Below are positions 19,832 to 46,014 of a DNA stretch of 64,000 nt, in pieces (position 1 is the stretch's first letter; the number at the start of each line of letters is the position of its first letter). Source of the DNA: Cyanidium caldarium (lineage: Eukaryota > Rhodophyta > Bangiophyceae > Cyanidiales > Cyanidiaceae); contig JANCYW010000001.1 of assembly GCA_026184775.1 (NCBI GenBank), positions 248,001 through 312,000 of the forward strand, written 5' to 3'. Made by a program: the position numbers and the translations under genes. The notes under the pieces were generated by a model that saw only the letters and a list, made by a program, of their open reading frames with translations, was not told where the DNA came from and ran no database searches.

Positions 19832-20848
19832 GAGGAGGCTCCTAAGAGAAAAGTGCGCTTGCTCTAACGCAGAAAGGTGACTGGCGGGCGGCCGGCGGTG
19901 AGTTTATCGGATGAGTCACCTTCGAATGGGACACTCGACACGTTCAGGACGGAGAAAGACCAATGCGATGAACACAGGACGGCGCGAGGCATCATGGGCG
20001 CGAGAACATGGCATCGAATAAGAGGGAGGCAGAGGCGCTGAAGACGAAAGGTGTAGTGCGTTGGGGGCAATTGCGTCGACCTCGGTGGGTGGATGTGGCG
20101 AGATGCGTGGCTCTACCCGTGCAACGAGCGCGGTCGCCGCGGTCCCCAGTGTGGGCTCCTCCGATCATCACCGATGCCGGACGCCTTGCCAACTCGGTCG
20201 CTGGCAGACAAGCCGCCATGCACCATCATCCCGTGCTCACCGCGTTCCCATCGAGTCGCTGGTGAACTCGTCTTGCAAGCGGTTCTCCATCTCTCATGCC
20301 GCAATCTCCTCCACTATCCAATTTCTCCCAGATTGACGCATTTCGCCACGCACCATCGGTTCGGGCCCCGCGCCGTGCGCTGGGTCTCCCAGCAGCCTGC
20401 ACCTGCCCTGTCGTTTGCAGTGCCCGCGCATTCACGAGCAGCTGGCGCGCGCACGTTCGTCGAGGCCGCGAGGGCGGCACTGGGACACGCGACGGCTCGA
20501 CGGTCGACGACTGGGTGCGCTGGAGGTAACTGAGGGTCGCGGCTCACCGCGGGCGATTGAGACGTTGCCGCGTCGCGGCGCCGGTTCGCGACGCACGTGG
20601 CATTGACGCCGCCGCTGCCGACGATACGAGTGCGGTGCTGGTGCATGCTCCAAGGCTAACGGGGGCAAATACCAGTTCGTGGAAGGGAGCTGAAGACGTC
20701 CAGCTAGCGGCACGCAAAGGCGCGGGAGCGAACCAGCGACCGACGACCAGTCTTCCGCGGAGTGAACTGGGGCAAAGAGCCGAGTGGTCACCACCTGTTT
20801 GCGTGTCCGCGCTTTGGAGCACTGCTCGCGGACGTCGAGGACTACAGT
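19832..20848. other. Intergenic, 1017 bp, divergent upstream region of SF1 and TPS/TPP
   Basis: No gene is supported. The frame of the TPS gene is open into this region up to 20762 but has no ATG there. A perfect 9-bp inverted repeat lies at 19874-19882 and 19914-19922 (AAGGTGACT ... AGTCACCTT), 40 bp from the SF1 start. Otherwise I see nothing. Confidence 0.5.
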
Positions 20849-23800
20849 ATGTACGGCAACGCGCGGACGTATAGCCACGGGGGTGTAGATGCGTCGCAGC
20901 GGACGCGGGTCACGTTTGTGGTGCGCTGTAAGGATGTCGATCCCGGCAAGCAAGAACACCTCTTCGTGCTCGGCGATGCGGTGCCGTTGGGTTCCTGGTC
21001 GGTAGCGCACGCGGTGCCGATGATGCGTGAGGAGCGTGCCTCCACCCCGGAGCCGACCACCTCGCTCGCGACGGCCACCGGCGGCGGCGGTGGTGATGGG
21101 GCGGGATCGGCGCTGGCGCTCTTGCCCGGCGCGCCACACGGCAGCCGCGGTGCGCCCTGGTGCGCCACCGTCGAGCTGGACAGCGGCACTCAGGTGGACT
21201 ACAAGTACTGCATTTTGGTTCGCGACCCGGTCACCGGCGCGATCGACTTGACGCAGGAACCGCGCTTCGAGCCCTTCGAGGGCAACCGCGTGCTCAAAGT
21301 GTTCGGTGTGGGCATGCGCGTGGACGACCGCAAGTTCGGCGAGCCGTTCATGGCCACCGACGAGTCGCGCATCCGCGTCAACTACGGTCGGGTGTTTAGC
21401 CGCTTCGAGGCGCCCAAGTCGGAGTCGCTGGACTGCACCTCGGACGGGGCGGTAGCGTCAGCACGCAACGCGCCCTTGCGTTCGGGTCTGGCGGCCACAC
21501 GGTACGCCCCGGTCGTGCTGGAGCAGCCGAGCTGTCTCATCATCGTGCTGTACCGCCTGCCGATCCTGGCGCGTCGCGTCCACAACGAGTGGGTGTTCCA
21601 GTGGGATGATGACGCGCTCTACCTCACCTCGGTCGGGCTGCGCAAAGGCCTCGAGGGCAAAATCCGGGTCACCTGGGTGGGCATCCTGAACAGCGACGAG
21701 GAGGTGCCGGTCCACGAGCAGGCGCACGTCAGCAACATCCTCACTTCGCGTTACGGCTGCGTGCCGGTGTTCCTGCCGGCGGAGACGCGCGTCAAGTTCT
21801 ACCAAGGGTTTTGCAAGGGCGTGCTGTGGCCGCTCTTCCACATGATCACCGAGATCTTCGAGGACGACACGCACCGTACCAAGAACTTCGATCGCTCGCT
21901 CTGGCACGTGTACTGCAACGTGAACCGCAAATTCGCCGATACAGTGGTGAGTCTGTATCACGAGGGCGATCTGATCTGGATACACGACTACCACCTGTTG
22001 GTGTTGCCGTCGCAGCTGCGTCGCAAGCTGTGCGGTGCCAAGATCGGTTTCTTCCTGCACACGCCGTGGCCATCGAGCGAGATGTACCGCATGCTGCCGG
22101 TGCGCGATGAGCTGTTGCGCGGCCTGCTGTCGTCGACGCTGATCGGTTTCCACCTGTTCGACTACGCGCGCCACTTTCTGTCGGCGTGTGTGCGCCTGCT
22201 CAACTTGGAGCACGAGTCGTCGCGCGGCTCGTTGGCCGTGGAGTATGCCGGCCGCCACGTGATGATCCGCGTGTCGCACATCGGCATCGATCCAGAGCGC
22301 TTTCGGGAGCGCTTGTTGCATCCGGACGTGAAGGCGGCGATTGCCGCGCTGCGCCGCGACCTCAAGAACCGTGTCATCCTGGCCGCCGTCGACGATTTGG
22401 ATATGGTGAAAGGCATCGCCCTGAAGCTGCTGGCGTTCGAGGCGCTGCTGGCCAGCTATCCCGGGTATCGAGACGTGCTGGTGCTGGTGCAGGTGGCCAT
22501 CCCGAAGGTGGCGCGCGTGAAGCCGTACGTGCGCGACGAGATCCGCGCCCTGGTGGAGCGCATCAACAACACGTACGGCAGCGGCGATGGCGGCGATTAC
22601 ACGCCGGTGCTGTACATAGAGCGGGACATCTCTTTCGACGAGCGCGTGGCCATCTACTCACTGGCGGATATGGTGTTTCTGACGCCCATCCGCGACGGTC
22701 TGAACCTGGTGCCGTACGAGTACGTGGTGTCGGCGGCGGAGAACAAGGGCCAGCTCATCCTGAGCGAGTTCACCGGCTGCTCGCGTGCGCTGTCGGGCGC
22801 GGTGCGCATCAACCCGTGGAACCGCGAGGAGGTGGCCTACACCATCGACAAGGTGCTGCAGAATAACGACGAGGTGAAGCGGCGCAAGCACGCCGCCGAT
22901 CTGACGTACGTGGCTGGCCACACTACCGCCGACTGGGCGGTGTCGTTCCTGTCGGATCTGGAGCGCGCCTCGGAGCCGGTGGTGCGCCTGACCAAACTCG
23001 GGCTGGGGTTTGGCGTCGGCGCGCGCATGCTGGAATTCGAGGGCTTCCAGCACCTCACCACCGAGCAGGTGGTGAAGTCGTTGCGGGCGTCGCAGCAGCG
23101 CCTGTTCCTGTTCGACTACGACGGCACGCTCACCGGGACGGATCCGCGGCACGAGCGCATGGCGCACGCCTGGGCCAAACCGTCCGACACGGTCATGCAG
23201 GCGCTGGCGCAGATCTCCAGCAACTCGCACAACCTGGTGGTGATCATGAGCGGGCGCAGCCGGGAGATGTTGCAGAGCGCGTTCAAGGGCTTGGGCAGGG
23301 TGGCGCTGGCCGCCGAGCACGGCTTCTACTACCGCTGGAACGACAAGTACCCGTGGCAGGAGAGCCGGCCCAATGCGGACTTGTCGTGGATCGAGGTGGC
23401 GCACGAGATCATGCTATCGTACATGGAGCGCACTGACGGCAGCTACATCGAGAAGAAGACCGCCGGGCTGGTGTGGCACTACAAGGACGCCGACCCGGAG
23501 TTTGGCGGGTGGCAAGCGAGCGAGCTGCACGACCACCTCGAGTCGGTGCTGAGCTCGTTCGGCGTGCAGGTCATCTCGGGCAATCGATGGGTGCAGGTGC
23601 GACTGCGCGATGTGAACAAGGGCGTCATGGTGGAGACCATCCTGCGGTGGTACAGTAGCGGGCACTTGCCGCCATCGCCCACCGGGCCGCTGGATGAAGC
23701 GCCGCCGCCGCCGCCGGCCGCCTCCACGTCGCCGTCGACACCGAGCGGCGGCGGCCGGGCGGCAATGATGGCGATGCCGTCGCCGCACCGACCGGACTTT

Positions 23801-24271
23801 ATCTTGTGCTGCGGCGACGATCGCACCGACGAAGACATGTTCACCTACATCGACCAGGTGTACGAGCGCGCCAGCGAGGAGGTGCACTCGCGCATCTTCA
23901 CGTGTGTGCTCGGGGTCAAGCCGAGCAACGCGCGGTACTACATACGCGACAGCGATGAGATGGTGGAGATACTGACGGCGCTGGCGTCGGCGTCGTCCAG
24001 TCGCCCGACGCGCTCCAGCACGGTGGAGGACTTTCGGGGTCCGGCGTCGGCGCTTGGGGAAGGCAATAGTAGCGATGGCGGCGGCAGTGGTCTGCGCGGA
24101 CACCGCCTGAATGTGCTGGGTCGCGCCAGCACCAGCAACGACGAGGCGGTCGGGTTTCACCTCGCCGGCACCAGTTTGGACGACAGCGATAACAGAGCCG
24201 GTGGCCGCGGACGGGGAAGCGAGACGCGTAGCGATGGTATATCGGGGTCAAGCCTCCTGCGACGGCACTAA
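20849..24271 (+). CDS. CBM20-trehalose-6-phosphate synthase/phosphatase fusion
   Basis: This 1140-residue protein can be read in three parts. Residues 15-150 form a CBM20-type starch-binding domain (TFVVRCKDVDPGKQEHLFVL, GDAVPLGSWSV). Residues about 220-700 form a GT20 glucosyltransferase with IWIHDYHLLVLPSQLR, GFFLHTPWPSSEMYR and PIRDGLNLVPYEYV. Residues about 750-1040 form a HAD phosphatase with FDYDGTLTG (DXD nucleophile) and CCGDDRTDEDMF. TPS joins UDP-glucose and glucose-6-phosphate; TPP removes the phosphate to give trehalose or acts as a sensor domain. Key TPP motifs look intact, as in plant class II proteins and some algae. The C-terminal 120 residues are Ser/Gly-rich. The ATG is the first in frame. 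A starch-binding module suggests docking to cytosolic starch. It converges on the debranching-enzyme gene. Confidence 0.93.
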   Translation: MYGNARTYSHGGVDASQRTRVTFVVRCKDVDPGKQEHLFVLGDAVPLGSWSVAHAVPMMREERASTPEPTTSLATATGGGGGDGAGSALALLPGAPHGSRGAPWCATVELDSGTQVDYKYCILVRDPVTGAIDLTQEPRFEPFEGNRVLKVFGVGMRVDDRKFGEPFMATDESRIRVNYGRVFSRFEAPKSESLDCTSDGAVASARNAPLRSGLAATRYAPVVLEQPSCLIIVLYRLPILARRVHNEWVFQWDDDALYLTSVGLRKGLEGKIRVTWVGILNSDEEVPVHEQAHVSNILTSRYGCVPVFLPAETRVKFYQGFCKGVLWPLFHMITEIFEDDTHRTKNFDRSLWHVYCNVNRKFADTVVSLYHEGDLIWIHDYHLLVLPSQLRRKLCGAKIGFFLHTPWPSSEMYRMLPVRDELLRGLLSSTLIGFHLFDYARHFLSACVRLLNLEHESSRGSLAVEYAGRHVMIRVSHIGIDPERFRERLLHPDVKAAIAALRRDLKNRVILAAVDDLDMVKGIALKLLAFEALLASYPGYRDVLVLVQVAIPKVARVKPYVRDEIRALVERINNTYGSGDGGDYTPVLYIERDISFDERVAIYSLADMVFLTPIRDGLNLVPYEYVVSAAENKGQLILSEFTGCSRALSGAVRINPWNREEVAYTIDKVLQNNDEVKRRKHAADLTYVAGHTTADWAVSFLSDLERASEPVVRLTKLGLGFGVGARMLEFEGFQHLTTEQVVKSLRASQQRLFLFDYDGTLTGTDPRHERMAHAWAKPSDTVMQALAQISSNSHNLVVIMSGRSREMLQSAFKGLGRVALAAEHGFYYRWNDKYPWQESRPNADLSWIEVAHEIMLSYMERTDGSYIEKKTAGLVWHYKDADPEFGGWQASELHDHLESVLSSFGVQVISGNRWVQVRLRDVNKGVMVETILRWYSSGHLPPSPTGPLDEAPPPPPAASTSPSTPSGGGRAAMMAMPSPHRPDFILCCGDDRTDEDMFTYIDQVYERASEEVHSRIFTCVLGVKPSNARYYIRDSDEMVEILTALASASSSRPTRSSTVEDFRGPASALGEGNSSDGGGSGLRGHRLNVLGRASTSNDEAVGFHLAGTSLDDSDNRAGGRGRGSETRSDGISGSSLLRRH

Positions 24272-31930: not shown

Positions 31931-32698
31931 ATGTCGTGGGAGGCGTTACGGGGGCAGGTGCGACGGCTGGAGCATGAGGTGGAGCAGAGCCTGACGGCGT
32001 ACGCCAAGGTGTCGGCGGCGTTGACGGGCGGGGCGTCGGGGCTGAACGCGGGGCCTACCGAGACGGCGCGTTGGACGCGCGAACTAGAGGCCGCGGAACG
32101 ATTGGGAGGCGAGATTCACACGCTGCTGATTCGCCTGGAGGAGGCGGATCAGGCACTGTCGGCGTATGCGCATGGCGCGTCTTCCAGTCCGGCTCTGTTG
32201 CACACGCTGCAGCGACATCAGGAGGTGCTGGCGGAGTACCGCGTAGAGTTTCGGCGGTTGCGGGTGTCGGTGCGGCAGTTGCGAGAATACGCGGAGCTGC
32301 TGAGCGGGGCGGAGGCAGCCGGCGCCGGTGTCGACAGGGGCGCGGACGGGTTCAGGCGCTCGGGGGATCTGGAGAGCGGTCTCTCCGGCGGCGCCCCTGG
32401 CGGTAGCAGCAACACGGCCGATCCAAATCTGGGGCGCGAGGCCGCCCACGTGAATGGGGCGCACCGCTCGGCGGATACCGCGCTGGGGCAGGGTTTGGCG
32501 TTGCGCGATGACCTGCTGCGACAGCGCCAGGTGTTCGCCAGCCTGGTGGATCGCATGGGCACCGCGGTCACCGCCATGCCGTCCGTTGGACGGTTGGTGT
32601 CGCAGATACGCCGACGCAAGCGCCGCGACGTCATCTTGGTGGCTGTCACCACCGGCGTGCTCTCATTCCTGACGCTGATGTGGAAGCTGATGCCGTGA
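31931..32698 (+). CDS. GOSR1: GOS1/GS28-type Golgi Qb-SNARE
   Basis: GS28 mediates vesicle fusion within and toward the Golgi. The 255-residue tail-anchored protein starts MSWEALRGQVRRLEHEVEQ, like the usual W-E-x-LR start of the family. It has a helical N-terminal domain (about 1-130) and a Ser/Gly-rich linker. The SNARE motif (about 190-235) runs from LRDDLLRQRQVFASLVDRMG to SVGRLVSQI. This is followed directly by RRRKRRDVILVAVTTGV, which matches the INLRKRRD...TM end of human GS28. One C-terminal helix (VILVAVTTGVLSFLTLMWKL) is the membrane anchor. Confidence 0.92.
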   Translation: MSWEALRGQVRRLEHEVEQSLTAYAKVSAALTGGASGLNAGPTETARWTRELEAAERLGGEIHTLLIRLEEADQALSAYAHGASSSPALLHTLQRHQEVLAEYRVEFRRLRVSVRQLREYAELLSGAEAAGAGVDRGADGFRRSGDLESGLSGGAPGGSSNTADPNLGREAAHVNGAHRSADTALGQGLALRDDLLRQRQVFASLVDRMGTAVTAMPSVGRLVSQIRRRKRRDVILVAVTTGVLSFLTLMWKLMP

Positions 32699-33166
32699 AC
32701 ACGAGTCCCCGGTGGAGATGCGTTGGCAGTGAATTAGAGTGTGGGAGGGTGTGGTGAAGCGCATTCGACGTGGCCACAGCGCTATCCAATGTAAATTCGT
32801 CCGGTGACGGCCACCTTTTGCAGATTCGACGGCGCAAAGGGTGTCTCTTTGACGAGCAAAAAAGAGGGCCCGTAACGGAAACGCCTCCATATGTGTGCAC
32901 ACTTCATCAACAACCTGAACGCTTTGGAGCACCTCTCTCCATTCTATCACCCTCATGCGGTCTCGTCGGCATTTCGCGCCCACCGCTATATTTCGACTGC
33001 ATCGCACCCGTCCAGCTGTCCACGACAGACGCGCGTTTCGTCTCGCGAGCGGGACGGGCGTTCGCGGTTCGCGGCGTCGGCGGAACCGGCGAGCACTCGA
33101 GAACCCCTCCAGGTGAGGGGTGGTTCCGCTTGTGAACTGTGCCACTGGGTGGGCGCCACCAGCGCT
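32699..33166. other. Intergenic, 468 bp, upstream of the syntaxin gene
   Basis: The syntaxin frame is open here from an ATG at 32891 (MCAHFINNLNALEHL), which would add 92 non-conserved residues. I take this as 5' leader. Nothing else is seen. Confidence 0.45.
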
Positions 33167-34213
33167 ATGCAAGACCGCTTGGCGGAGCTGCGCGGAGAGG
33201 CCGGACCGAGTTGGGCGACTGGACGACAGACGCCAGGAGCCGAAGCGACCACGTCCGACCGAGGGCCGACGTCGCTGACACCACTGGAGGAGGTGGTGGT
33301 GCACGGTGAGCGGCGACAACCCACTCAAGCCGAAAGTAAATCAGCCGTACCGGCTCCCGGCGAGGTGGAAGAGGACGGGGAAGGGAGTGGCGCCTCTGAC
33401 GCGCTGCTGGTGGACTTTTACGGTCAGGTGAACCGTATCGACGAGGAGGTTCGTCAATTGCGCGGTTGTGTAGAGCAGCTCGAGCCGCTGTATGAACAGA
33501 AGCTGTATACGGTGGACATCAGCGGGTCTTCCGCCGTGGACGACGCCGTCGACATGCTGCTGGGCAAGTCGCAATGCCTGCGCAGCAGCATCCAACGCGC
33601 GCTGAAAGACATGGCCGACGAGAACAAGCGCTTCTGTACAGAGCACCCGTCGCGCACCGGTGAGGCACGCGTGCGCATCAATCAGCATCAGCGCCTGATA
33701 CGACAGTTTATGAAAGTGACCGAGGATTTCGAGCACATGCAGGAGCGGCAGAAGCAGCGCATGCAGATGGACGTGGTGCGACAGCTCAGAGTCATCCAGC
33801 CGGATATCGGCGAGCAGGAGATCCAGGGCGTGCTGCAGGAGCACCAAGGCGTGGACGAGGTGCTGCGCAGTCGCATGGTGTCGCTGCGCACCGTGGCGGT
33901 GCAGACGGCCGTCGACGACATTGAGATGCGAAATCGCGACATTTTAGCCTTGGAGCAGAGCATTCAGGAGCTGCATCAGATGTTCCTCGACTTGGCGGTG
34001 TTGGTCGAGTCGCAGGGCGAGCTTATCGAGCAGGTGGAGGTGAACGTGCAGGCGGCGCGCACCCAGGTGAAACGCGGGGTCAAAAACTTGGTGTCCGCGC
34101 GCCGACTACAACGACGCTCTCGTATGCTCCTATGGTGTCTGGTGATACTGTTGATCATCTTGCTCGCCGCCATCATCCTGCCCGTGGTGCTCACCCAGAC
34201 GATAAACAATTGA
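33167..34213 (+). CDS. Qa-SNARE (syntaxin)
   Basis: Syntaxins organise SNARE bundles on target membranes. The ATG MQDRLAELRGEAG gives 348 residues, near family size; an ATG 276 bp upstream would extend it by 92 residues. About 80 acidic/disordered residues lead to a three-helix Habc domain (about 80-190, from DALLVDFYGQVNRIDEEVRQ). The Qa-SNARE motif (about 255-310) contains RDILALEQSIQELHQMF and LAVLVESQGELIEQVE with the zero-layer Gln. A basic stretch (RRLQRRSR) precedes a C-terminal transmembrane helix (LLWCLVILLIILLAAIILPV). The motif resembles plasma-membrane or Golgi syntaxins (SYP1/SYP3); the exact compartment is open. Confidence 0.92.
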   Translation: MQDRLAELRGEAGPSWATGRQTPGAEATTSDRGPTSLTPLEEVVVHGERRQPTQAESKSAVPAPGEVEEDGEGSGASDALLVDFYGQVNRIDEEVRQLRGCVEQLEPLYEQKLYTVDISGSSAVDDAVDMLLGKSQCLRSSIQRALKDMADENKRFCTEHPSRTGEARVRINQHQRLIRQFMKVTEDFEHMQERQKQRMQMDVVRQLRVIQPDIGEQEIQGVLQEHQGVDEVLRSRMVSLRTVAVQTAVDDIEMRNRDILALEQSIQELHQMFLDLAVLVESQGELIEQVEVNVQAARTQVKRGVKNLVSARRLQRRSRMLLWCLVILLIILLAAIILPVVLTQTINN

Positions 34214-35246: not shown

Positions 35247-36911
35247 ATGGCACCGAAGCGCCTGCGGGTGGCCCACGAAATGGCGATTCGGCAGCGTTCC
35301 GACGACGCTGACGACGCGGGGGAGGGAGGGAGTTGGAGTTCGCGTGAGAGCGGCGCGCCCAGAACGCGCGGCACGTCGTCCGCACCTCAAGAAGATGTTG
35401 ATGACGTGGTTGCTGAGCCACAACTCCAGGCGGTGCTGGATTCGCTGCGACACACGATGGGCCTGCCCAAGCGAGCACCGCTGGAGGATGTGCTGATCGC
35501 TGCTCAGCAGCGACTTTCTAGTGCCGGTGCGGCAGATGTGCTGAGGCGCCAGATCAGTGGCGGCAGTGTGCACCTCAGTCGGGACGGTGTGTGCAGCCTC
35601 CGGCGGAGCCAGACCGACGCACAGTGCGGAGCGGTGCCATCGAGTTCTGTGTTTAGCGAGGTGACACCCTCGGAGATGTTCACCGACCAAGTGGCGCCCG
35701 AATGGGCGGCCACGCGTCCCCGGGAGGAGTGGGATGAACACGTCGCCCGCACTCTGTGCACGCCCACCAATGTCGGACCCGACGTGCTGCGCACTCGAGC
35801 GTTGGGCGTGCTGATGCACCTGATCCTGGAGCATTCGTCGAGCACGCCGTTTCCCATGGCCGTGCGAGTTTTCTCGCACGGCGGTACAATGTATCAGATA
35901 TACGGCAACGCGCGGACGGTGTACGGGCACGAACGCGACCAGCTGATTGGCGGCAACACCTGGCACTACATATACCCCAGCGATGCGCTGCGCGGAATGG
36001 CTGCTGTCGAGGAGTGGAAGTTTCTCGGCCGCGATCCGGAGTACGTGAAAAAGTTCACCCCGTTGTTTTCCGCGCGCTTTTCCTGTGGCGGTTGTGACCC
36101 GCTGCGAGATGACCCGTCGTCGGGCGACGGGCGGTTCCACTGGCTAGGCATGATGGGGCTGGAATTCGGCGGCGGACTGATCGGAGCGTTCGACTGGTCC
36201 CGTCACACCGTGCACGAGTACGTCATGGACGGCATGGACACTTTTATGGTATGTGACGCGCAGGGGCGCATTGTGCATGTGGATGGCGGTGCGCACTCGC
36301 GTAGCGACTCGATGCGATGCAGCGAGCCGATCGTGCGCTCGCCGGTGGAGGACGAGACCGACATGTTGCTCTTTTCGCTGCATCGGGGGCAGAACTTTTT
36401 CCAGATGATACACGAGTCGGATCGGCAGCGCTGCCGCGCTTGTATTGAGCATTTGTTGCAGCTGGCCAGAGTAGGGAATGTTGGCGGCGGTGGCGTCGGG
36501 GACGAGGCTGATGCCCCGAAGCCGACTTCAACGCCTCGGCGGCAACCGCCAGGGCCTGCCGCGGCGCGCGTTGGCGGCGATGCCGTGGCGTGCGACGAGT
36601 CACCACCGGCCGACTTGGCACGTGGTGCCTGCGAGGCGTGGTTGTCGTATTGGCGTTACAATGTGCACGACAAGACGTTTTTGTGGAATGCGGCGTTCGC
36701 CGCTGCGCTGCCCGACGGCGTCGGCTTTGCAGTGTACGAGCGGCTGGCCAGTGTGCGCATGCATACTTGTCGCATGCAGTTGCGGCAGCTGATGGTGGAT
36801 TGGACCACGTCGCAGACACGCCAGCGACTGCGATCGCCGCCTGCGGGCAGTGCCGGAAGCGCGGAGACCGCGAACATCGGTCCTCGCCCAGCAACCGGTC
36901 GTCACCCGTAA
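35247..36911 (+). CDS. HLH-PAS-PAS-like protein, copy 1 (acidic region before the HLH)
   Basis: This 554-residue protein and the one at 37627 are tandem paralogues. Residues 59-90 (LQAVLDSLRHTMGL, then PLEDVLIAAQQRL) look like helix-loop-helix; in place of a basic region there is QEDVDDVVAEP. A first PAS-like segment (about 208-260) has IYGNARTVYGHERDQLIGG and TWHYIYPSDALRGMA. A Cys motif, CGGCDP (Cys 280 and 283), follows. A second PAS-like segment (about 328-405) has FMVCDAQGRIVHVD and FFQMIHESDRQRCR. A final block, WRYNVHDKTFLWNAAF, resembles a PAC extension. Linkers are low-complexity. The architecture resembles animal bHLH-PAS regulators, but that is inference from pattern; PAS segments sense light, redox or ligands. 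The ATG chosen is the first in frame. Confidence 0.7.
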   Translation: MAPKRLRVAHEMAIRQRSDDADDAGEGGSWSSRESGAPRTRGTSSAPQEDVDDVVAEPQLQAVLDSLRHTMGLPKRAPLEDVLIAAQQRLSSAGAADVLRRQISGGSVHLSRDGVCSLRRSQTDAQCGAVPSSSVFSEVTPSEMFTDQVAPEWAATRPREEWDEHVARTLCTPTNVGPDVLRTRALGVLMHLILEHSSSTPFPMAVRVFSHGGTMYQIYGNARTVYGHERDQLIGGNTWHYIYPSDALRGMAAVEEWKFLGRDPEYVKKFTPLFSARFSCGGCDPLRDDPSSGDGRFHWLGMMGLEFGGGLIGAFDWSRHTVHEYVMDGMDTFMVCDAQGRIVHVDGGAHSRSDSMRCSEPIVRSPVEDETDMLLFSLHRGQNFFQMIHESDRQRCRACIEHLLQLARVGNVGGGGVGDEADAPKPTSTPRRQPPGPAAARVGGDAVACDESPPADLARGACEAWLSYWRYNVHDKTFLWNAAFAAALPDGVGFAVYERLASVRMHTCRMQLRQLMVDWTTSQTRQRLRSPPAGSAGSAETANIGPRPATGRHP

Positions 36912-36997
36912 GGGGACGTCGCCGCATCGGACGCGACCCGCAAGCGCCCGTTCGCTTTCCCGTGCACACGACGGCCACACGGGTGCTTGCCACCCAG

Positions 36998-37258
36998 TTA
37001 TCGCTCTGACTTGTCGGAGGCGTCGCTGGGCGGCAACGGGGTCATTTCCCGCAAATCCCCCGGTGCCGTGGACTTCATCCTGTACAGCGTGTAAAAGTAC
37101 ACTCCCGCCACGCCCAGCAGCGTGCCCGTGAACGTCAGCTCGTTGCGGAAGCGGCACCACACGCGCATGGCCGTCGACGGCGGTGTGGCCACCCGCGGCG
37201 GCATCGGATGATAGGGAGGGGGTTGGCGCGGTGCACCAGAAGACGGTTGATGGGACAT
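36998..37258 (-). CDS. COA3: COA3-like cytochrome c oxidase assembly protein
   Basis: This is an 86-residue single-span protein beginning MSHQPSSGAPRQPPPYHP. The stretch RFRNELTFTGTLLGVAGVYF followed by YTLYRMKS resembles the conserved core of COA3/CCDC56: a short basic run before a helix, TG, then GVYxYT. COA3 is a small mitochondrial inner-membrane protein that supports Cox1 translation and complex IV assembly. Length and layout fit (family 85-110 residues). The usual Q-D-D-F after the helix is not clear here, so the call is moderate. It lies convergent to HLH-PAS-like copy 1 (86 bp apart) and divergent from copy 2, so it sits within the tandem pair. Confidence 0.6.
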   Translation of the reverse strand: MSHQPSSGAPRQPPPYHPMPPRVATPPSTAMRVWCRFRNELTFTGTLLGVAGVYFYTLYRMKSTAPGDLREMTPLPPSDASDKSER

Positions 37259-37626
37259 GAAACCGTCTGTTGTTGCCCCCACACGAACACCCTCTCGAGC
37301 GACAACGTACACCCGTCGTGCTCCCGAAGCGCACCCTCACGTCGACGTCGCGGGCACGCCGCACACGCGCGCGATCTGCGTCACGCGATCGACGAGTGCG
37401 CGTGACGCATTCGTGAGCACGCCTCCGACGTGGCCTGCAGCACCCATCGGCACGCGCTCGTGTGCAGAACCCGGTGTGCGCGCACGAGCGCGTGAAGCCA
37501 GCCGTCGGCCGAGGTGGATTGGCGCGTCGGCCGACGCTGCCCCATCTGCTGCTTTGCCGTGCGGCGGCAGCGAGCACGCTTTGGGGCTGGGGTGTTTCGG
37601 CGGCGCCCCCTCTCTGAAAGACGTTC
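37259..37626. other. Intergenic, 368 bp, divergent upstream region of COA3-like and HLH-PAS-like copy 2
   Basis: No gene is supported and no named motif is seen. The region is very GC-rich with many CGCG steps. Confidence 0.4.
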
Positions 37627-39240
37627 ATGATTGTCGGGACGGAAGAGAGCGACTCGGAGGTGTCGTGCAACGTGCGCGAACGCCACCGCACGCCCGAGTC
37701 GGAGGAAGGCGCGGCGGACACCGAGCCGGGGGCGGCAGGAGGTGGCAGGGCGTCCGCGGTTGCGTCGACGCGTTCGAGTCAGACTCGGCGCACGGCGGGC
37801 CGGCCGGCGGCGCATCAGTGTGTCGAGGAACGGCGGTGGCAACGGCGGCGGCGCGTGCAGGAAGCGCTGAGCGGGCTGCGGGACACGCTGGGAGTGCCAC
37901 CCCAGACGCCTATGATGGAGGTACTGTTGGCGGCGCAACGAAAGTTAGCGGAACAGGAGCGCTACACCGAGAGTATGCACGGCAGTTATGCGCCGCCCAC
38001 CAGCGCGCTCTCCGACGTGCACATGGGCGGGGGCAGCGCGTCGCCCTCTGAGAGCGAACCGGGGCCACGAGTGCCGCCCGCGTCGGCGCTCTGCAATTTT
38101 GATATGCAATATCTCACGCCACCACTACCGTATGAGGAGCTGCGGATGCTCACCACTGCACAAGAGCGCCGGCAGTACGCGATGCGCGTGTTGCTGGAGC
38201 GCGCCGACAGTCTCGGCAACGGTGAGCGCCTGCTACAGTTAGGGGTGCTCCTTTCCAAAGTATTGGAGACGTCGCCCTCGTCGCCGATGCCGATGGCGCT
38301 GATGATCACCGGGTTCGACAGCATCGTCTACGAGGTGTTTGGCGACACTCGAGCGGTGTACAACCTGGATCGCGACGCCATGGTCGGCATGAGCGGGTGG
38401 CAGCACATGCACCGCAACGATGCGTTGCGGGTCATGGCGGAGGTGGAGGCTTGGAAGGCGGCGGCTCTACAGACGGACCTGGGGCGCGACTACGTCAGCG
38501 TACATCACGATCGCTGGTACTGCGGTGGGTGCGACCCGACCAAGGACGATCCTGGCACAGACGGCCCGCGCTTTCATTGGCTCACCTCACTGGTGTTCAG
38601 CCTCGGTGGGTCGTTGCTGGGCGTACTGCATATCGCCATGCGCGAAGCGGACCCGTCGTTGAGCAACAGCGCCAGCACCTACATCGTGTGCGATCGCGAC
38701 GGACGCATCGTGCACGTGGACAGCGGTATGCACATGCGCCGCATGATCCTTGCCCATTTGGACGTGATGCCACTGTCCAGACGGGAGGAGGACAAGGATC
38801 TGTTGTTGTTCTCGCTGCGTCGCGGTCAGAACTTTTTCGATATCATCCACGCGTCGGATCGCGCGCGCTGTCGCGAATGCATCGAACACGTTCTGGCGGC
38901 GGGGCCGATCTCGCTCGCCGGCAGCAGCAACAACAACAACAACATCGCCGGTCCGCCACTTTCATCATCAGGCCCCGAGACGGTGGAGCATCGCGTGGCG
39001 GATGCCGCAGGGCAGGGCAGCGGAGACGCCTCGACGGAGGCGGATGCATTCGCGTCGGACCCGCGCACCGACTCCACCAACAGCGAGGGCTGGATGTGCT
39101 ACTGGCGCTACAACGTGCACGAACGGGCGTACGTGTGGAATACGGCGTTTGTGGCCGCGCTGCCCGATCGAGCGGGATTCGCCATCTACGAAGAGCTCGC
39201 CAGCACGCGCCTCCACAAGTACCGCAGCCAGGTGCAATAG
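37627..39240 (+). CDS. bHLH-PAS-PAS-like protein, copy 2 (basic region present), ends at in-frame UAG
   Basis: This is 537 residues from an ATG to a UAG. It is the tandem paralogue of the gene at 35247. Residues 68-76 (EERRWQRRRR) are strongly basic and lead straight into VQEALSGLRDTLGV, a loop, and MMEVLLAAQRKLAEQ, which reads as a bHLH DNA-binding/dimerisation unit. PAS-like segment 1 (about 225-275) has VYEVFGDTRAVYNLDRDAMV and WQHMHRNDALRVMA. The motif CGGCDP follows (Cys 299 and 302). PAS-like segment 2 (about 350-420) has YIVCDRDGRIVHVDSG and FFDIIHASDRARCRE. A PAC-like end reads WRYNVHERAYVWNTAF. A poly-Asn run (about 438) comes from an AAC repeat. The frame stays open for 59 codons after the stop. 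Light, redox or ligand sensing is family-level inference. Confidence 0.7.
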   Translation: MIVGTEESDSEVSCNVRERHRTPESEEGAADTEPGAAGGGRASAVASTRSSQTRRTAGRPAAHQCVEERRWQRRRRVQEALSGLRDTLGVPPQTPMMEVLLAAQRKLAEQERYTESMHGSYAPPTSALSDVHMGGGSASPSESEPGPRVPPASALCNFDMQYLTPPLPYEELRMLTTAQERRQYAMRVLLERADSLGNGERLLQLGVLLSKVLETSPSSPMPMALMITGFDSIVYEVFGDTRAVYNLDRDAMVGMSGWQHMHRNDALRVMAEVEAWKAAALQTDLGRDYVSVHHDRWYCGGCDPTKDDPGTDGPRFHWLTSLVFSLGGSLLGVLHIAMREADPSLSNSASTYIVCDRDGRIVHVDSGMHMRRMILAHLDVMPLSRREEDKDLLLFSLRRGQNFFDIIHASDRARCRECIEHVLAAGPISLAGSSNNNNNIAGPPLSSSGPETVEHRVADAAGQGSGDASTEADAFASDPRTDSTNSEGWMCYWRYNVHERAYVWNTAFVAALPDRAGFAIYEELASTRLHKYRSQVQ

Positions 39241-39420
39241 CTGGTGCGCGATTTCATGCGCTTCAGGGAGCAGATGCAGCAACACCACGACGCCGGCGAC
39301 ACGCTACCCACCACTGCACCGGTATTCCGCCTGCCGCCGGATGTGATGCAGATCAGTGCCGCACGGGCGGCCGCTATCCCTAGCATGCACGAGGTGCTCA
39401 CAAAGGCGCCCCATCCGTGA
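39241..39420 (+). other. In-frame 59-codon extension after the UAG of copy 2
   Basis: Directly after the UAG (39238-39240) the same frame runs 59 codons to a UGA. It begins LVRDFMRFREQMQQHH, which lines up with QLMVDWTTSQTRQR in copy 1, where Gln (CAG) occupies the UAG position. It could be a read-through tail, a recently cut C-terminus or a sequencing error. Confidence 0.6.
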
Positions 39421-41186: not shown

Positions 41187-42434
41187 TCACTGCCCGTCGG
41201 CCTCCCGATCCGCCGTCTGACGCGATGACGACGACGTTGATGATGGCGCGTTCACCCTGTCGGCCCAGGCTTTCCAGGCGCTGCGCGACGCCTCCCCCGG
41301 CAAGTGCCCACTGCCATCACCTATCTCCGCGCTCTCTTTCGCCACTTGGCGCAGATGCGGCGACGACGACAGCCGTGCCACCTTGTCGTAATCCTGACAA
41401 GCGACCATCGTCCGCACGTGCTCGTCCTCATCATCGCGGATATTCACAAACACATCGTACAGCGATGCCACCGGTGGGCGAGTGCGCATCTTCCCCTCGC
41501 CGCCCAGTACGGCGTGCTCGCCAAACTGGAACAGATTGTCAGTCGCGTAGTAGCGCATGGCTATCTCCGGCGCCGGCAAGTTGCGCAAACGCTCCGCGTT
41601 CTCCTCCAGAAACTGCGAATAGGTGTCCACCGCGTGCTTCTCCAGCAACTCGCTGAAGTTGTAGGACATGGCCGGCGCCACAATGTACAACGCTACCAGC
41701 AGCCAGTAGTAGATGACGCTGAGGTGGTACGCCAGAAAGCGGTCCAGCCAGCGCTCATCGCCCCCGAGCGCGCTCATGATCAACAGGTGGTGCATCTCGT
41801 TCCACTCCTCCTCGAAGTGGATCTTGCGCAGCTCCGCCAGATGCAGCCAGTTGAACGTCTCGTACAGATGCAGCACCGACAGGTACGAAAAATACGGCAT
41901 GCGCGCTACCGTCTCCAGAAACCAGAAGCGCGATATCGGTCGGTGGGTGAACGCCAGGTCCAGAAAGGCGCACGCCAGCTGGTACGGCACCCGGGACAGC
42001 CACGGCGCCCGCGTCAAATACCCAGTCTCGGCGTCGCGCTGTTGCTCGCGGCGCCGCACGCCTTCGTCGTCCAGCTTCAGTTGCAGCGCGCCCGGAAGAC
42101 GCTCGGCCTCGTTCACGCCGCGCAAGCGATCCCACGCGTCCAGAGCGATGCCGCGCGACTCGCGCACGAAATTCCGCACGCCCAACACCAGCGCGTTGCC
42201 CATGCGCTCCGTGCGCAGCCGCTCAAACACCGCCACATATGGCAGTGGCGGCAGTAGTGACTTGCCGCGCTTCTCATTACCGCTGCTGACGTCACCGGTA
42301 TCGTCCGCACCCCGCGCCTGCATCCGCCACCCGGCACGCCGGACCCTCGCTCCCGACACTCGCCGCCCGCCGCACCGCTGTACAAACCCGCCCGTTGGCG
42401 ACCGCCGCAACCCCGCCGAATTCACAAACGCCAT
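41187..42434 (-). CDS. PTOX: Plastid terminal oxidase (PTOX), copy 1
   Basis: PTOX is a di-iron quinol oxidase that dumps electrons from plastoquinol onto oxygen in thylakoids, protecting PSII and serving carotenoid desaturation. The start chosen, MAFVNSAGLRRSPTGG, gives 415 residues with an early-Phe transit peptide; another ATG lies 15 bp upstream. The di-iron ligands are in WFLETVARMPYF, EEWNEMHHLLIM (ExxH), YNFSELLEKHAVDTY and IRDDEDEHVRTM (ExxH). The run PEIAMRYYATDNLFQFG is the PTOX-specific insertion that separates it from mitochondrial AOX. The C-terminus is Ser/Gly-rich. It is followed by a paralogue in tandem. Confidence 0.94.
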   Translation of the reverse strand: MAFVNSAGLRRSPTGGFVQRCGGRRVSGARVRRAGWRMQARGADDTGDVSSGNEKRGKSLLPPLPYVAVFERLRTERMGNALVLGVRNFVRESRGIALDAWDRLRGVNEAERLPGALQLKLDDEGVRRREQQRDAETGYLTRAPWLSRVPYQLACAFLDLAFTHRPISRFWFLETVARMPYFSYLSVLHLYETFNWLHLAELRKIHFEEEWNEMHHLLIMSALGGDERWLDRFLAYHLSVIYYWLLVALYIVAPAMSYNFSELLEKHAVDTYSQFLEENAERLRNLPAPEIAMRYYATDNLFQFGEHAVLGGEGKMRTRPPVASLYDVFVNIRDDEDEHVRTMVACQDYDKVARLSSSPHLRQVAKESAEIGDGSGHLPGEASRSAWKAWADRVNAPSSTSSSSRQTADREADGQ

Positions 42435-42820
42435 GCTGCCACAGTCCATCACTGCTCCCTCGCGTTCCGGTGACGTGGTGGTGCTTGTTGGTGCAGACCG
42501 ACTCCAAAGCAACCGCTGTTGTTATGGCGCTCCACGTGCGATGACGAACCGACACCCCGCACGCGCTTCCCGAACGTCCCGATTCGCGCGCGTATGCACG
42601 CACGCCGACGGAAGAAGAATCTGCCACGTCATCGCCCGCATCCCCGCCAACCGGACAGCGAGAGGGAGCGACCGAGCGCACGCATGCGATGGACGAGCTG
42701 ACGCGGGCGATGCGAGTGGGTCGGCCAGGAAGACATTCGCGGTACGGGCGTGTTGATGCAAGTTGGAGAGGGAACCGCTCGATTGCCACCCGCTATCCAT
42801 TCATCTATCGACTCCGCGCC
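42435..42820. other. Intergenic, 386 bp, between tandem PTOX genes
   Basis: No gene is supported. It holds the upstream region of PTOX copy 1 and the 3' flank of copy 2. Confidence 0.45.
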
Positions 42821-44233
42821 TCACAACCCGAGTCCGTCCTCATAGTCGGGCAGGTTGGCGGCGGTGCGCTGCTTGTCCGGGTGCTCGCCGTGCGATGCTC
42901 CGTGATGGTGTTCGTGTCGTTGCTGTCCCTCGTCGATACGAGCGCTGGCGTATCGTCCGGTCTCGTCGATCCAGTGCTTCCAACGCTGGCGATCTTCCTC
43001 GACGCGAATGCGGTATGGGGCATCGGTGAGGTGCACCACGTCGCCTTGCGGTGTCGTCGGGCTATCCGACGATGTCTCTCGCCGGGGCACGTACGTCGTC
43101 GGCATCTCGGTGTGGCTCGTCACAAAATCGTCCCGCTGGCACGCCTCCATGGTCTTGATGTGTTCGGCTTCGTCGTCACGAACGTTGACAAACACGTCGT
43201 ACAACGACTCGACGGGTGGGCGACGAGCCGGCGCCGTCTGCCCCTGCGCTATCGGTGCAAAAGCGTACAACTCGCCCTCGCGATAGTACTGCACGGCGAC
43301 CTCAGGTGCCGGCAGCATGCGCAACCGCGCAGCATTCTGCTCCACAAACTCCGCATACGTGTCGTGGGCGTGCTTCTCCAGCAACTCGCTGAAATTGTAT
43401 GAGGTGGCCGGCGACACCATATACACCACCACCAACATCCAATAGTACACCAGCGACAGGTGGTACGCCAGAAAACGATCCACCCAGCGTGCATCCCCGC
43501 CCAGTGCGCTCATGATGAGCAGGTGGTGCAGCTCGTTCCACTCCTGCGCGAAATGCAGGCGGCGCAATTCGGCCACATGCAACCAGTTGAGCGTCTCGTA
43601 CAGGTGCAGCACCGTGAGGTAGGAAAAGTAGGGCATGCGCGCCACCGTCTCCAACAGCCAGAAGCGGGCAACGGGGCGGCCGCCAAACCACGCATCCAAA
43701 CTGCGACACGCCAGTCGGTAGGTGATGCGCGATATCCACGGCGACCGCGCCAAGAAGCCGGTCTCGGCCTCTCGTCGACGCTCCCGCTCCGCCACCGCGG
43801 CATCGTCCAGTGCCAACTGCAAGGCGCCGGGCAGTTCCGATGCGGCCGTGTTGCCGCGCAAGAGCGCGCTCCACTCGTGCCACAGCGCTTCCGCCTCCCG
43901 CCGCATGCTGCGCCCCGCCAACGTCAACACGCTGACCAGGCGAGCCGAACGAGTCCTATCCGAACCATCCACTTTCCGTTCCGTTGTTGCCATGAGGGTG
44001 ATGCGGCGTGACGGCGGCTTCCGAAGGTGGGACGGCCGCTGCACGGCCGGCAGCGGTGTCTCCCGGGGTGCCTGGAGCACCCGACAGCCTCGCCTCCCTG
44101 TCAGTCTACAGGGACCGCGCCCAACCCATACATAGACCGCACGATCCCCATCAGGCATCCAGAGTCCTCTATTCGCGGGTCGCAGCCCGCATCGACTGAC
44201 GCAACCGGCAACAAAGGCAAGATCCAGTGCCAT
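42821..44233 (-). CDS. PTOX: Plastid terminal oxidase (PTOX), copy 2
   Basis: This copy has the same core as its neighbour: FWLLETVARMPYFSYLTVLH, QEWNELHHLLIMSALGG, YNFSELLEKHAHDTYAEF, the PTOX insertion PEVAVQYYREGELYAF and VRDDEAEHIKTM. All di-iron ligands are kept. The start at MALDLAFVAGCVSRCG gives 470 residues with an Arg-rich plastid-like presequence of about 80 residues; a second ATG (MATTERKVDG) at 43993 would remove it. The C-terminus has a His-rich patch (QQRHEHHHGASHGEH) absent from copy 1, possibly a metal-binding tail. Tandem placement and near-identical motif blocks indicate a gene duplication. It is divergent from ctpA across 218 bp. Confidence 0.92.
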   Translation of the reverse strand: MALDLAFVAGCVSRCGLRPANRGLWMPDGDRAVYVWVGRGPCRLTGRRGCRVLQAPRETPLPAVQRPSHLRKPPSRRITLMATTERKVDGSDRTRSARLVSVLTLAGRSMRREAEALWHEWSALLRGNTAASELPGALQLALDDAAVAERERRREAETGFLARSPWISRITYRLACRSLDAWFGGRPVARFWLLETVARMPYFSYLTVLHLYETLNWLHVAELRRLHFAQEWNELHHLLIMSALGGDARWVDRFLAYHLSLVYYWMLVVVYMVSPATSYNFSELLEKHAHDTYAEFVEQNAARLRMLPAPEVAVQYYREGELYAFAPIAQGQTAPARRPPVESLYDVFVNVRDDEAEHIKTMEACQRDDFVTSHTEMPTTYVPRRETSSDSPTTPQGDVVHLTDAPYRIRVEEDRQRWKHWIDETGRYASARIDEGQQRHEHHHGASHGEHPDKQRTAANLPDYEDGLGL

Positions 44234-44451
44234 GGATGCACACCCACACGCCGCAAGCACCACTCCGAACACGTTCAAGCGGCAACGATCGCGCGATTCG
44301 CGTCGCGTCCGTCGACGACACCGGCTCGGAGTGCGCGCCTCTGCTGCTGTCGTTGTTGTTGTTGTTGCTGCACGGCGTGACCGACTTTCGAGGGCGACGC
44401 TACCCTTACGGTGGGTGTGCACTCCCACCTTCCCGCTGTTCCTACTCCACG
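44234..44451. promoter_or_regulatory. Shared upstream region of PTOX copy 2 and ctpA
   Basis: This is 218 bp between divergent start codons, as chosen. A GTT/GCT-type short triplet run lies near 44350-44370. Co-regulation of two PSII-protection genes is plausible but inferred from position only. Confidence 0.4.
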
Positions 44452-46014
44452 ATGTTTGTGGGGCTGACGCCGATCCGTGTGTCGTCGCTGTCACGTCAAC
44501 AGTCGGCAAGCGCTTCGTTGCGACGACGGCGGCGTGGCGCGTGGCGCGATCCTCTTCCACACCGGACGTGGCAGGCGTCGGTACTCGTTCAATGGGGTGA
44601 ACACGCACGCACTGCCGCAGTGGCAGTGGTGACGGCGGTGTGGTTGCACTGTGCTCCGGTGCAGGTGCAGGCGGCCGCCTTGAGCGCGCCGACGCCGACG
44701 CAGCTGATCGAGGAGGCATACATGCTGCTGCAGGAGAACTATATCGACACGCGCATGATCACGCCGACGCTGTTGGAGCATGCATTATCGCCGCCGCTGC
44801 CGCGAAATGTGGCGCAAGCGGGTCAGCGCATTGAGGAGGAGCTTTTGCGGCCGTTGCAGGACCGCTTCACCCGGTATGTGCCCCGCGAGCAGATGGAGCA
44901 CCTGTTGCGTTTCGATGGCAGTGGCATGGGCATGCTGCTGCGGCGGGTGGACGCGCGGGTGGCGGCGGCCTCGCGGGATGCGACAGAAGCGGCGTCGTTC
45001 CCGGGAGTGGTGCCGCGTGTGCCGGTATCACCGGGCGACTTGTACGTGAGCAGTCCGCCGGTGCGCGGTTCAGCGGCTGATCGGGCCGCCCTGCAAGCCG
45101 GTGACGTAATCGACCGCATTCAGGGCGTCGATGCTACTGGCGGGCGTGTGCTGCCGTTCGAGGCGGCCAATCTGATGCAGGGCGTGGACGGAGGCACGGT
45201 GACGTTGACCATCCGCGGACGCGGCGATGTACAGCTGGTGCGGCGCGTGCTGGGCGTGCACGCGTCTAGTGCGCGGCGCGTGGTCACCTACGGGCAGCTG
45301 GGACGTACGGGTGTGATTCGCATCCGCGAATTCAATGCGCTAGCGCGTCCGGGCGTCGAGCAGGCACTGCAGCATTTCTTCGGCGATGCCGCGACAGCGC
45401 CCATGCGCGCGCCGTCGGTCCCAGTGCAACGGCTGGTGCTGGATTTGCGGAGCAACGGCGGCGGCTCCCTGGAGGAGGCTATCGACGTGGCCAGCCTGTT
45501 CCTGGGGCCGAACGTGCCGTTGGCGTATATGTCCAATGAGAGCGGCGCCGAGCTGGCGGTCACCACGCGCTCGCCCACCCACCTGTACGCGCAGGGGCGC
45601 AGCTTGCCCATGGTGGTGCTGGTGAACGATCACACCGCCAGCGCCAGTGAGGTCGTGGCGGGGGCGTTGCGCGATCAGTGCCGCGCCGCCCTGGTCAGCG
45701 TCGGGATCGCCGCGAATCACACTTACGGCAAGGCGCTGGTGCAGGGCGTATTCGGCTTGAGCGACGGCAGCGGTCTGGTGATCACGGTGGGCAAGTACGT
45801 GACGCCGGTGGTGCGCGAACAGATTCAAGGCCGCGGTCTGCACGCCGATCGCCACGTACTGGGACTGTGGTCAGCGCTACCGCCGTGGCTGGGCGCCTCC
45901 ATGGCCGAGGCCGAGCTGTTCGATCGCGACGCGAAGGCGTTCGGGTCGCCGGCCCTCTGTCCGAGCCCGGCAACGCACACACTGCCGGCCGGTGGTGTGG
46001 CCGAAGGTGCATAA
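44452..46014 (+). CDS. ctpA: CtpA-type carboxy-terminal processing protease (D1 processing)
   Basis: CtpA trims the C-terminus of the PSII D1 protein in the lumen, which the manganese cluster needs. The start MFVGLTPIRVSSLSRQQ gives 520 residues: an early-Phe transit peptide, then a lumenal signal (AAVAVVTAVWLHCAPVQVQA) and a helical N-domain (SAPTPTQLIEEAYMLLQENY). A PDZ domain (about 205-270) contains AALQAGDVIDRIQGVDATG. The protease core has LVLDLRSNGGGSLEEA, the catalytic Ser in NDHTASASEV (about 397) and the catalytic Lys in TYGKALVQG (about 427). The Ser-Lys spacing is 30 residues, five longer than in the Scenedesmus enzyme, owing to extra residues in ALVSVGIAANHTYGK. An earlier ATG at 44236 overlaps the PTOX start and is unlikely. 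Confidence 0.93.
   Translation: MFVGLTPIRVSSLSRQQSASASLRRRRRGAWRDPLPHRTWQASVLVQWGEHARTAAVAVVTAVWLHCAPVQVQAAALSAPTPTQLIEEAYMLLQENYIDTRMITPTLLEHALSPPLPRNVAQAGQRIEEELLRPLQDRFTRYVPREQMEHLLRFDGSGMGMLLRRVDARVAAASRDATEAASFPGVVPRVPVSPGDLYVSSPPVRGSAADRAALQAGDVIDRIQGVDATGGRVLPFEAANLMQGVDGGTVTLTIRGRGDVQLVRRVLGVHASSARRVVTYGQLGRTGVIRIREFNALARPGVEQALQHFFGDAATAPMRAPSVPVQRLVLDLRSNGGGSLEEAIDVASLFLGPNVPLAYMSNESGAELAVTTRSPTHLYAQGRSLPMVVLVNDHTASASEVVAGALRDQCRAALVSVGIAANHTYGKALVQGVFGLSDGSGLVITVGKYVTPVVREQIQGRGLHADRHVLGLWSALPPWLGASMAEAELFDRDAKAFGSPALCPSPATHTLPAGGVAEGA

Follow-up and report, generated by a model that had tools for sequence, protein, structure and literature searches.

Paralogous proteins of probable HLH-PAS-PAS build, resembling animal bHLH-PAS regulators, in the red alga Cyanidium caldarium

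Known bHLH-PAS regulators and the red-algal genes

Transcription regulators that combine a helix-loop-helix (HLH) segment with two PAS domains, and that serve the clock and the hypoxia and xenobiotic responses, are regarded as having arisen in animals or their near relatives. The available part of a paper on Sycon (PMC5064789) notes that basic HLH-PAS (bHLH-PAS) proteins were thought to be metazoan-specific until an example was found in a filasterean. The present study concerns two neighbouring genes of the red alga Cyanidium caldarium, copy 1 and copy 2, located in a 64,000-nucleotide stretch of its genome (the window, C1:248001-312000; the assembly comprises 8,787,356 bases in 20 contigs). 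The genes probably encode paralogous HLH-PAS-PAS proteins built like the animal bHLH-PAS regulators ARNT/BMAL1, CLOCK, HIF and AHR. If this is true, regulators of such a build either arose much earlier or came about in red algae by a striking convergence. The question is testable in Cyanidium, whose genome is small (4870 coding genes and fewer than 50 introns; PMC9812998, Cho et al.) and in which three members are known, including one that lacks the basic region.

The animal bHLH-PAS proteins of the ARNT/BMAL1 branch (group C bHLH) differ from the red-algal proteins in several respects: the sequence similarity is near noise, the basic region is absent in copy 1, irregular in copy 2 and partial in a third paralogue (P0005), and PAS-B of copy 2 contains an insertion of about 60 residues. 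PERIOD shares the tandem PAS domains but has no HLH, whereas two N-terminal helices are predicted in copy 2, and it is outranked by bHLH-PAS proteins in the structure comparison described below. PpsR, a bacterial PAS regulator with a helix-turn-helix (HTH), is alike in being a transcription regulator with more than one PAS domain, but it also ranks below bHLH-PAS proteins; HTH families were not found in whole-protein Pfam scans of the red-algal proteins, the C-termini of which are of low model confidence. RITMO1-type proteins of diatoms and other protists are likewise algal proteins with bHLH and PAS. In its accessible text, a paper on Chromera (PMC10739334) lists RITMO1 homologues in alveolates, cryptophytes and rhodophytes, crediting Annunziata et al. 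2019 for the rhodophytes and giving no number of PAS domains for the homologues in that group. The stramenopile bHLH-PAS proteins have one PAS domain and are perhaps convergent with the vertebrate ones, according to the portion of the study available (PMC4827209, Thiriet-Rupert et al.). In contrast to this one-PAS type as described, two PAS-like regions are seen here in models and Foldseek alignments. The initial annotation of the locus, made from the letters of the DNA, had considered the architecture undescribed in red algae. The RITMO1 homologues reported second-hand from rhodophytes narrow this statement, but no two-PAS HLH protein of a red alga was found in the literature searched, which consisted mostly of open texts and did not extend to the supplementary counts of a red-algal transcription-factor survey (PMC8304369). 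The available part of that survey includes C. caldarium, and a bHLH count may be in its supplement.

The coding frame of copy 1 occupies positions 35247-36911 of the window (plus strand, 554 amino acids counted from the ATG), and that of copy 2 positions 37627-39240 (plus strand, 537 amino acids, the last codon being the TAG at 39238-39240). The sequences compared were P0001 (the copy 1 protein with its start extended to a TTG 12 codons upstream of the ATG), P0002 (copy 2), P0003 (a relative from another ENA contig) and P0005, the third paralogue, which is encoded on the minus strand at C1:215818-217383, some 31 kb to the left of the window. An alignment of copies 1 and 2 over 461 columns gives 35% identity (E 1e-88). 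All the motifs that had been quoted for them in the initial annotation are present, namely GNARTVY in copy 1 and GDTRAVY in copy 2, YPSDALR and HRNDALR, VCDAQGRIVHVD and VCDRDGRIVHVD, and IHESDR and IHASDR, together with CGGCDP and WRYNVH in both. Judged by their sequences, the motifs are shared beyond chance and the copies are paralogous. P0003 is 88% identical to copy 2 (131/142 in PAS-A and 42/44 in late PAS-B), and P0005 aligns across the PAS region with an overall identity of 22% and does not keep the full CGGCDP and WRYNVH.

The identity of copy 1 to copy 2 is clustered in the proposed domains, with 15/46 residues in HLH, 51/142 in PAS-A, and 41/79 in the first and 28/44 in the second half of PAS-B; the linker has 11/82 and the insertion within PAS-B 12/53. 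Such a distribution is that of a multi-domain protein whose linkers are weakly conserved. The family looks narrow: when the protein database was searched with P0002, P0001 and the alignment A2 (7994, 7984 and 7993 candidates scored, respectively), the only relatives were the window proteins P0002/P0004 and, in addition, P0003, and such a search would miss distant relatives with few exact words in common. Among viral contigs there were four pattern matches and no relatives of the copies.

The two predicted PAS domains

No PAS or HLH match in the present analysis reaches the curated cut-off of its family. Structure comparison, together with in-register sub-threshold sequence matches, supports two PAS folds, PAS-A followed by PAS-B, and the support is better for PAS-B than for PAS-A. 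In copy 2, PAS-B consists of a first half with the motif IIHASDR (residues 347-425, positions 38665-38901, plus strand as for all parts of the two copies), an insertion (residues 426-486, 38902-39084) and a second half (39085-39216) with the WRYNVH block and the last three strands. The Pfam family PAS_3 matches residues 401-426 of P0002 with E 0.024, and the structural match to ARNT PAS-B covers residues 348-525. At the level of the models, the predicted PAS-B is shown to be a close structural match to the PAS-B of ARNT/BMAL1 and, in this respect, of the ARNT/HIF type. The insertion is probably disordered, as residues 431-490 are predicted with a local distance difference test score (pLDDT) of 23-36. 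The PAS-B of copy 1 (36228-36764, with a weakly conserved insertion at about 36465-36632) was placed by its homology to copy 2 and by a PAS_3 match at residues 393-416 of P0001 (E 0.22).

PAS-A of copy 2 (residues 222-338, 38290-38640) was delimited by the profile alignment to BMAL1 PAS-A and the predicted order of strands and helices, and that of copy 1 (35853-36203), which contains CGGCDP, by alignment to P0002 and P0005 and by an NCBIfam sensory_box match at residues 216-259 of P0001 (E 0.016). The same family matches P0005 at residues 212-265 (E 0.068). CGGCDP precedes the final two strands predicted in PAS-A, and in the models the third strand of this domain is missing or very short. The profile alignments have the PAS-A register of BMAL1 and ARNT, and the VIA structure-match rows barely cover PAS-A. 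In P0005, PAS_3 matches residues 227-305 with E 0.0049, and the isolated segment scores 19.8 bits (E 0.00097; cut-off 25.6). When nine segments were searched in isolation, a Pfam PAS match was obtained only for this PAS-A of P0005 and the PAS-B of copy 2; the four other PAS segments of the six (PAS-A and PAS-B of copy 1, PAS-A of copy 2 and PAS-B of P0005) had no Pfam PAS match.

A profile of the four relatives was compared with 177,635 PDB sequences, and BMAL1 made up the top three of the four chains listed (E 0.088-0.13). BMAL1 was also first among the eight chains listed for a profile of three rows that covered the PAS region (E 0.13-0.19), and P0005 alone listed two ARNT chains only (E 1.1 and 1.6). 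Taken alone, this profile evidence is near noise; its weight comes from recurrence and register. In the Foldseek ranking, bHLH-PAS structures stand above PERIOD (ranks 45, 48 and 49) and PpsR (rank 38, and 33 in a second search). The bHLH-PAS motif H(P)(D/E)D...R is described in the available part of a study by Xing et al. (PMC10468136), and a loosened form of it (H or Y, two residues, D, then R), defined after inspection of the sequences, is found in each PAS domain of all four proteins. The whole-genome searches with PAS_3, PAS, PAS_9 and PAS_11 returned nothing at E <= 10, the genes discussed here included, and are uninformative on other PAS proteins.

Some further matches were rejected. 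Adiponectin and other chains listed with the PAS-region profile are unrelated. The matches to Ribosomal_S27, Flu_M1, EAD11, SMN_G2-BD, Linocin_M18, zf-CCCH_7, Borrelia_P13, Tet(E) and OiaX were attributed to chance, with no recurrence at matching places across the three paralogues; the weak Ribosomal_S27 match recurs in P0002 and in its 88% identical relative P0003.

The HLH segment, the proposed mechanism and its alternatives

In the model of copy 2, two helices (residues 62-88 and 96-118) are separated by a short loop, the block having a pLDDT of 32-64, and an Arg-rich segment with the HLH was assigned to residues 63-118 (37813-37980). The HLH-like segment of copy 1 (35412-35531), which has no basic region, was placed by alignment to the HLH of copy 2. 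P0003 has a Pfam HLH match at residues 64-87 (E 0.057, under the cut-off), and its place agrees with the HLH of copy 2. In bHLH numbering, where the helix-1 anchor is position 16, the DNA-contact positions are E9 and R13. P0003 alone has E9, R10, R12 and R13. Copy 2 has R9, R12 and R13 without E9, and its Arg-rich segment differs in length from that of P0003 by two residues; P0005 has S9 and, of the key positions, keeps only R13; copy 1 has D9 and E13, with no Lys or Arg and five Asp or Glu among the 15 residues before helix 1. By these residues, a DNA-contacting bHLH is plausible in P0003 and doubtful in copy 2, and the segment of copy 1 is not one. Since the E9/R13 pair is not found in copies 1 and 2, they are classed as HLH-PAS-PAS proteins, bHLH-PAS-like, and not as members of the bHLH-PAS family.

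Elsewhere in the genome, a canonical bHLH gene is located on contig C4 (40.3 bits, no PAS match), and another HLH gene, which is divergent and whose loop is predicted to be long, is located on C7 (L008:808-2061, minus strand); the latter may resemble the plant ILR3-type bHLH.

The initial annotation had seen in both copies an HLH-like segment, two PAS-like segments and a block like a PAC extension at WRYNVH, had likened the whole to ARNT and CLOCK, and had named profile searches and structure models as a means of checking. The PAS folds appeared in the models in the order given, with sub-cut-off PAS matches in the profile searches, although PAS-A is less secure. WRYNVH was reassigned: it lies behind the low-confidence insertion of about 60 residues and opens the second half of PAS-B as its first strand. 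An HLH is predicted in copy 2 with weak support, and the predicted PAS-B resembles that of animal proteins, but the word bHLH does not apply to copy 1 and fits the irregular basic region of copy 2 poorly.

It can be proposed that the proteins follow a plan of an N-terminal HLH, then PAS-A, then PAS-B broken by the probably disordered insertion. By analogy with ARNT/BMAL1 and their partners, two chains would be joined through their HLH and PAS faces and would regulate nuclear transcription, the Arg-rich segment of one chain contacting DNA. Copy 2, with its Arg-rich stretch before helix 1, would be the likelier DNA-contacting subunit. The lack of basic residues before helix 1 of copy 1 suggests that it may be a non-DNA-binding partner or a damper of copy 2, and P0005 might be a further partner. 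All four proteins have Cys 299 and Cys 355 (copy 2 numbering). The second Cys of CGGC in PAS-A, like both Cys of CRxC in PAS-B, is found in copies 1 and 2 and P0003 but not in P0005; redox or metal control through these Cys pairs would be a guess.

A further-reaching proposal, which we find rather doubtful, is that the Cyanidiales possess a true HLH-PAS-PAS system of the ARNT/BMAL1-CLOCK/HIF type. It would comprise three genes, with one subunit tuning the other after losing DNA contact; the two-PAS build would predate animals or have moved between lineages, and the cues to which the system responds may be redox, metal or light/time. The genome also contains four cryptochrome/photolyase loci (L012-L015, on C6, C7, C7 and C8), an observation that is neutral on a clock role.

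The assignment of copies 1 and 2 to paralogous HLH-PAS-PAS proteins, which we consider probable, has to be weighed against a number of observations. The two models have a mean pLDDT of 37.7 and 45.0 and a predicted template modelling score (pTM) of 0.29 and 0.47, and they are partly dependent, each alignment including other paralogues. The Foldseek TM-scores, at 0.14-0.17 by query, are low, and bHLH-PAS entries are so numerous in the PDB that they inflate the row counts. The multi-domain VIA rows have a root-mean-square deviation of 12-28 A, and therefore the inter-domain arrangement carries no weight from the models. No copy or relative has a PAS or HLH match at or above a curated cut-off; P0003, so close to copy 2, has no PAS match at all, and the HLH segments of copy 1, copy 2 and P0005 have no Pfam HLH match when searched in isolation. 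Three of the four proteins have an irregular basic region or none, and a genome-wide HLH profile search found two other genes and none of the HLH-PAS family. In the PDB searches, the three BMAL1 matches are near-identical proteins, and the unrelated DDI1 homolog 2 was listed at E 0.17 with the four-relative profile and at E 0.14 with the profile without P0005, so that values of about 0.1 are near noise. No PAS chain was obtained in PDB searches with P0001, P0002 and P0003, singly or profiled without P0005, and the reversed three-row control listed two chains, neither of them bHLH-PAS, the best being a sensor histidine kinase (E 1.1).

It is highly improbable, in our judgement, that the proteins have neither PAS nor HLH and represent a lineage-specific fold, the structural matches being artefacts of low-confidence models, even if the low pLDDT, the want of anything above curated cut-offs and the near-equal score of an unrelated PDB chain and BMAL1 speak for it. 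We regard as unlikely a reading in which they are tandem-PAS signalling or scaffold proteins that have a plain coiled coil as N-terminal helices and dimerise or sense without DNA binding, in a PERIOD-like role. The lack of basic residues in copy 1, the single key residue of P0005, the lack of Pfam HLH matches in these two proteins and in copy 2, and the presence of PERIOD and PpsR structures at Foldseek ranks 38, 45 and 48-50 are consistent with such a role; the sub-cut-off HLH match of P0003 with its E9-R10-R12-R13, the two predicted helices with a short loop and the higher rank of bHLH-PAS structures argue for the HLH-PAS-PAS plan instead. Convergence is compatible with the proposed mechanism, and we give it even chances: HLH and PAS would have been joined independently in red algae, and the family would not be orthologous to the animal one. 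The near-noise similarity to animal proteins agrees with this, as do the convergence suggested for the one-PAS stramenopile proteins in the accessible text of Thiriet-Rupert et al. (PMC4827209) and the report of Xing et al. (PMC10468136) that no sequences similar to human PAS orthologues were found in non-metazoan eukaryotes, multiple bacterial origins being inferred. The order of PAS-A and PAS-B, the best match of PAS-B to ARNT/BMAL1 and the loosened H-x-x-D...R motif in both domains argue against it.

The end of copy 2 bears on another alternative. Past the TAG, the frame stays open for 59 codons and ends with a TGA (39241-39420, plus strand); this tail shares 52/59 residues with the C-terminus of P0003, whose frame is open where copy 2 has the TAG, the only one inside the match. 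The end of copy 2 had been set at 39420, which reads through the TAG and was corrected here. The TAG may reflect a recent truncation, a strain polymorphism or an assembly error, and RNA folding 3' of the TAG is ordinary (z 0.29), with no sign of a structured read-through signal. The tail and the length difference in the Arg-rich segment could be taken as signs of a decaying gene pair, in which copy 2 would have lost its C-terminus to the stop and had its basic region disturbed and copy 1 would have lost its basic region. We hold such decay to be improbable: all proposed domains are open and conserved, as the PAS identities between copy 2 and P0003 illustrate, and the TAG stands after the last predicted PAS strand (ending at residue 524), which would leave the folds intact.

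Surroundings of the two genes

The two copies had been described as tandem, and they are indeed paralogous neighbours, but they are not directly adjacent. A COA3-like gene (cytochrome oxidase assembly), which is outside the HLH-PAS family, lies antisense between them, and the pair is therefore no simple head-to-tail tandem. It was identified on the minus strand at 36998-37258, with the in-frame ATG at about 37258 taken as its start, by a Pfam Coa3_cc match (E 3.7e-5, 23.7 bits, under the 27-bit cut-off). The surroundings of the copies are ordinary nuclear genes, including those for SNAREs, PsbU, the COA3-like protein and alternative oxidases. The GC (guanine and cytosine) content of the window is 0.62-0.68 in 2-kb steps, and that of the copy 1 frame by codon position is 0.67/0.52/0.73. 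Two adjoining SNARE genes, with V-SNARE_C and Syntaxin/SNARE domains, are located at 31931-32698 and 32891-34213 (both plus strand), and two adjoining same-strand genes with alternative-oxidase domains at 41187-42512 and 42821-44719 (both minus strand). A single frame at 20762-24271 (plus strand) combines an N-terminal starch-binding CBM_20 domain with trehalose-phosphate synthase and phosphatase domains.

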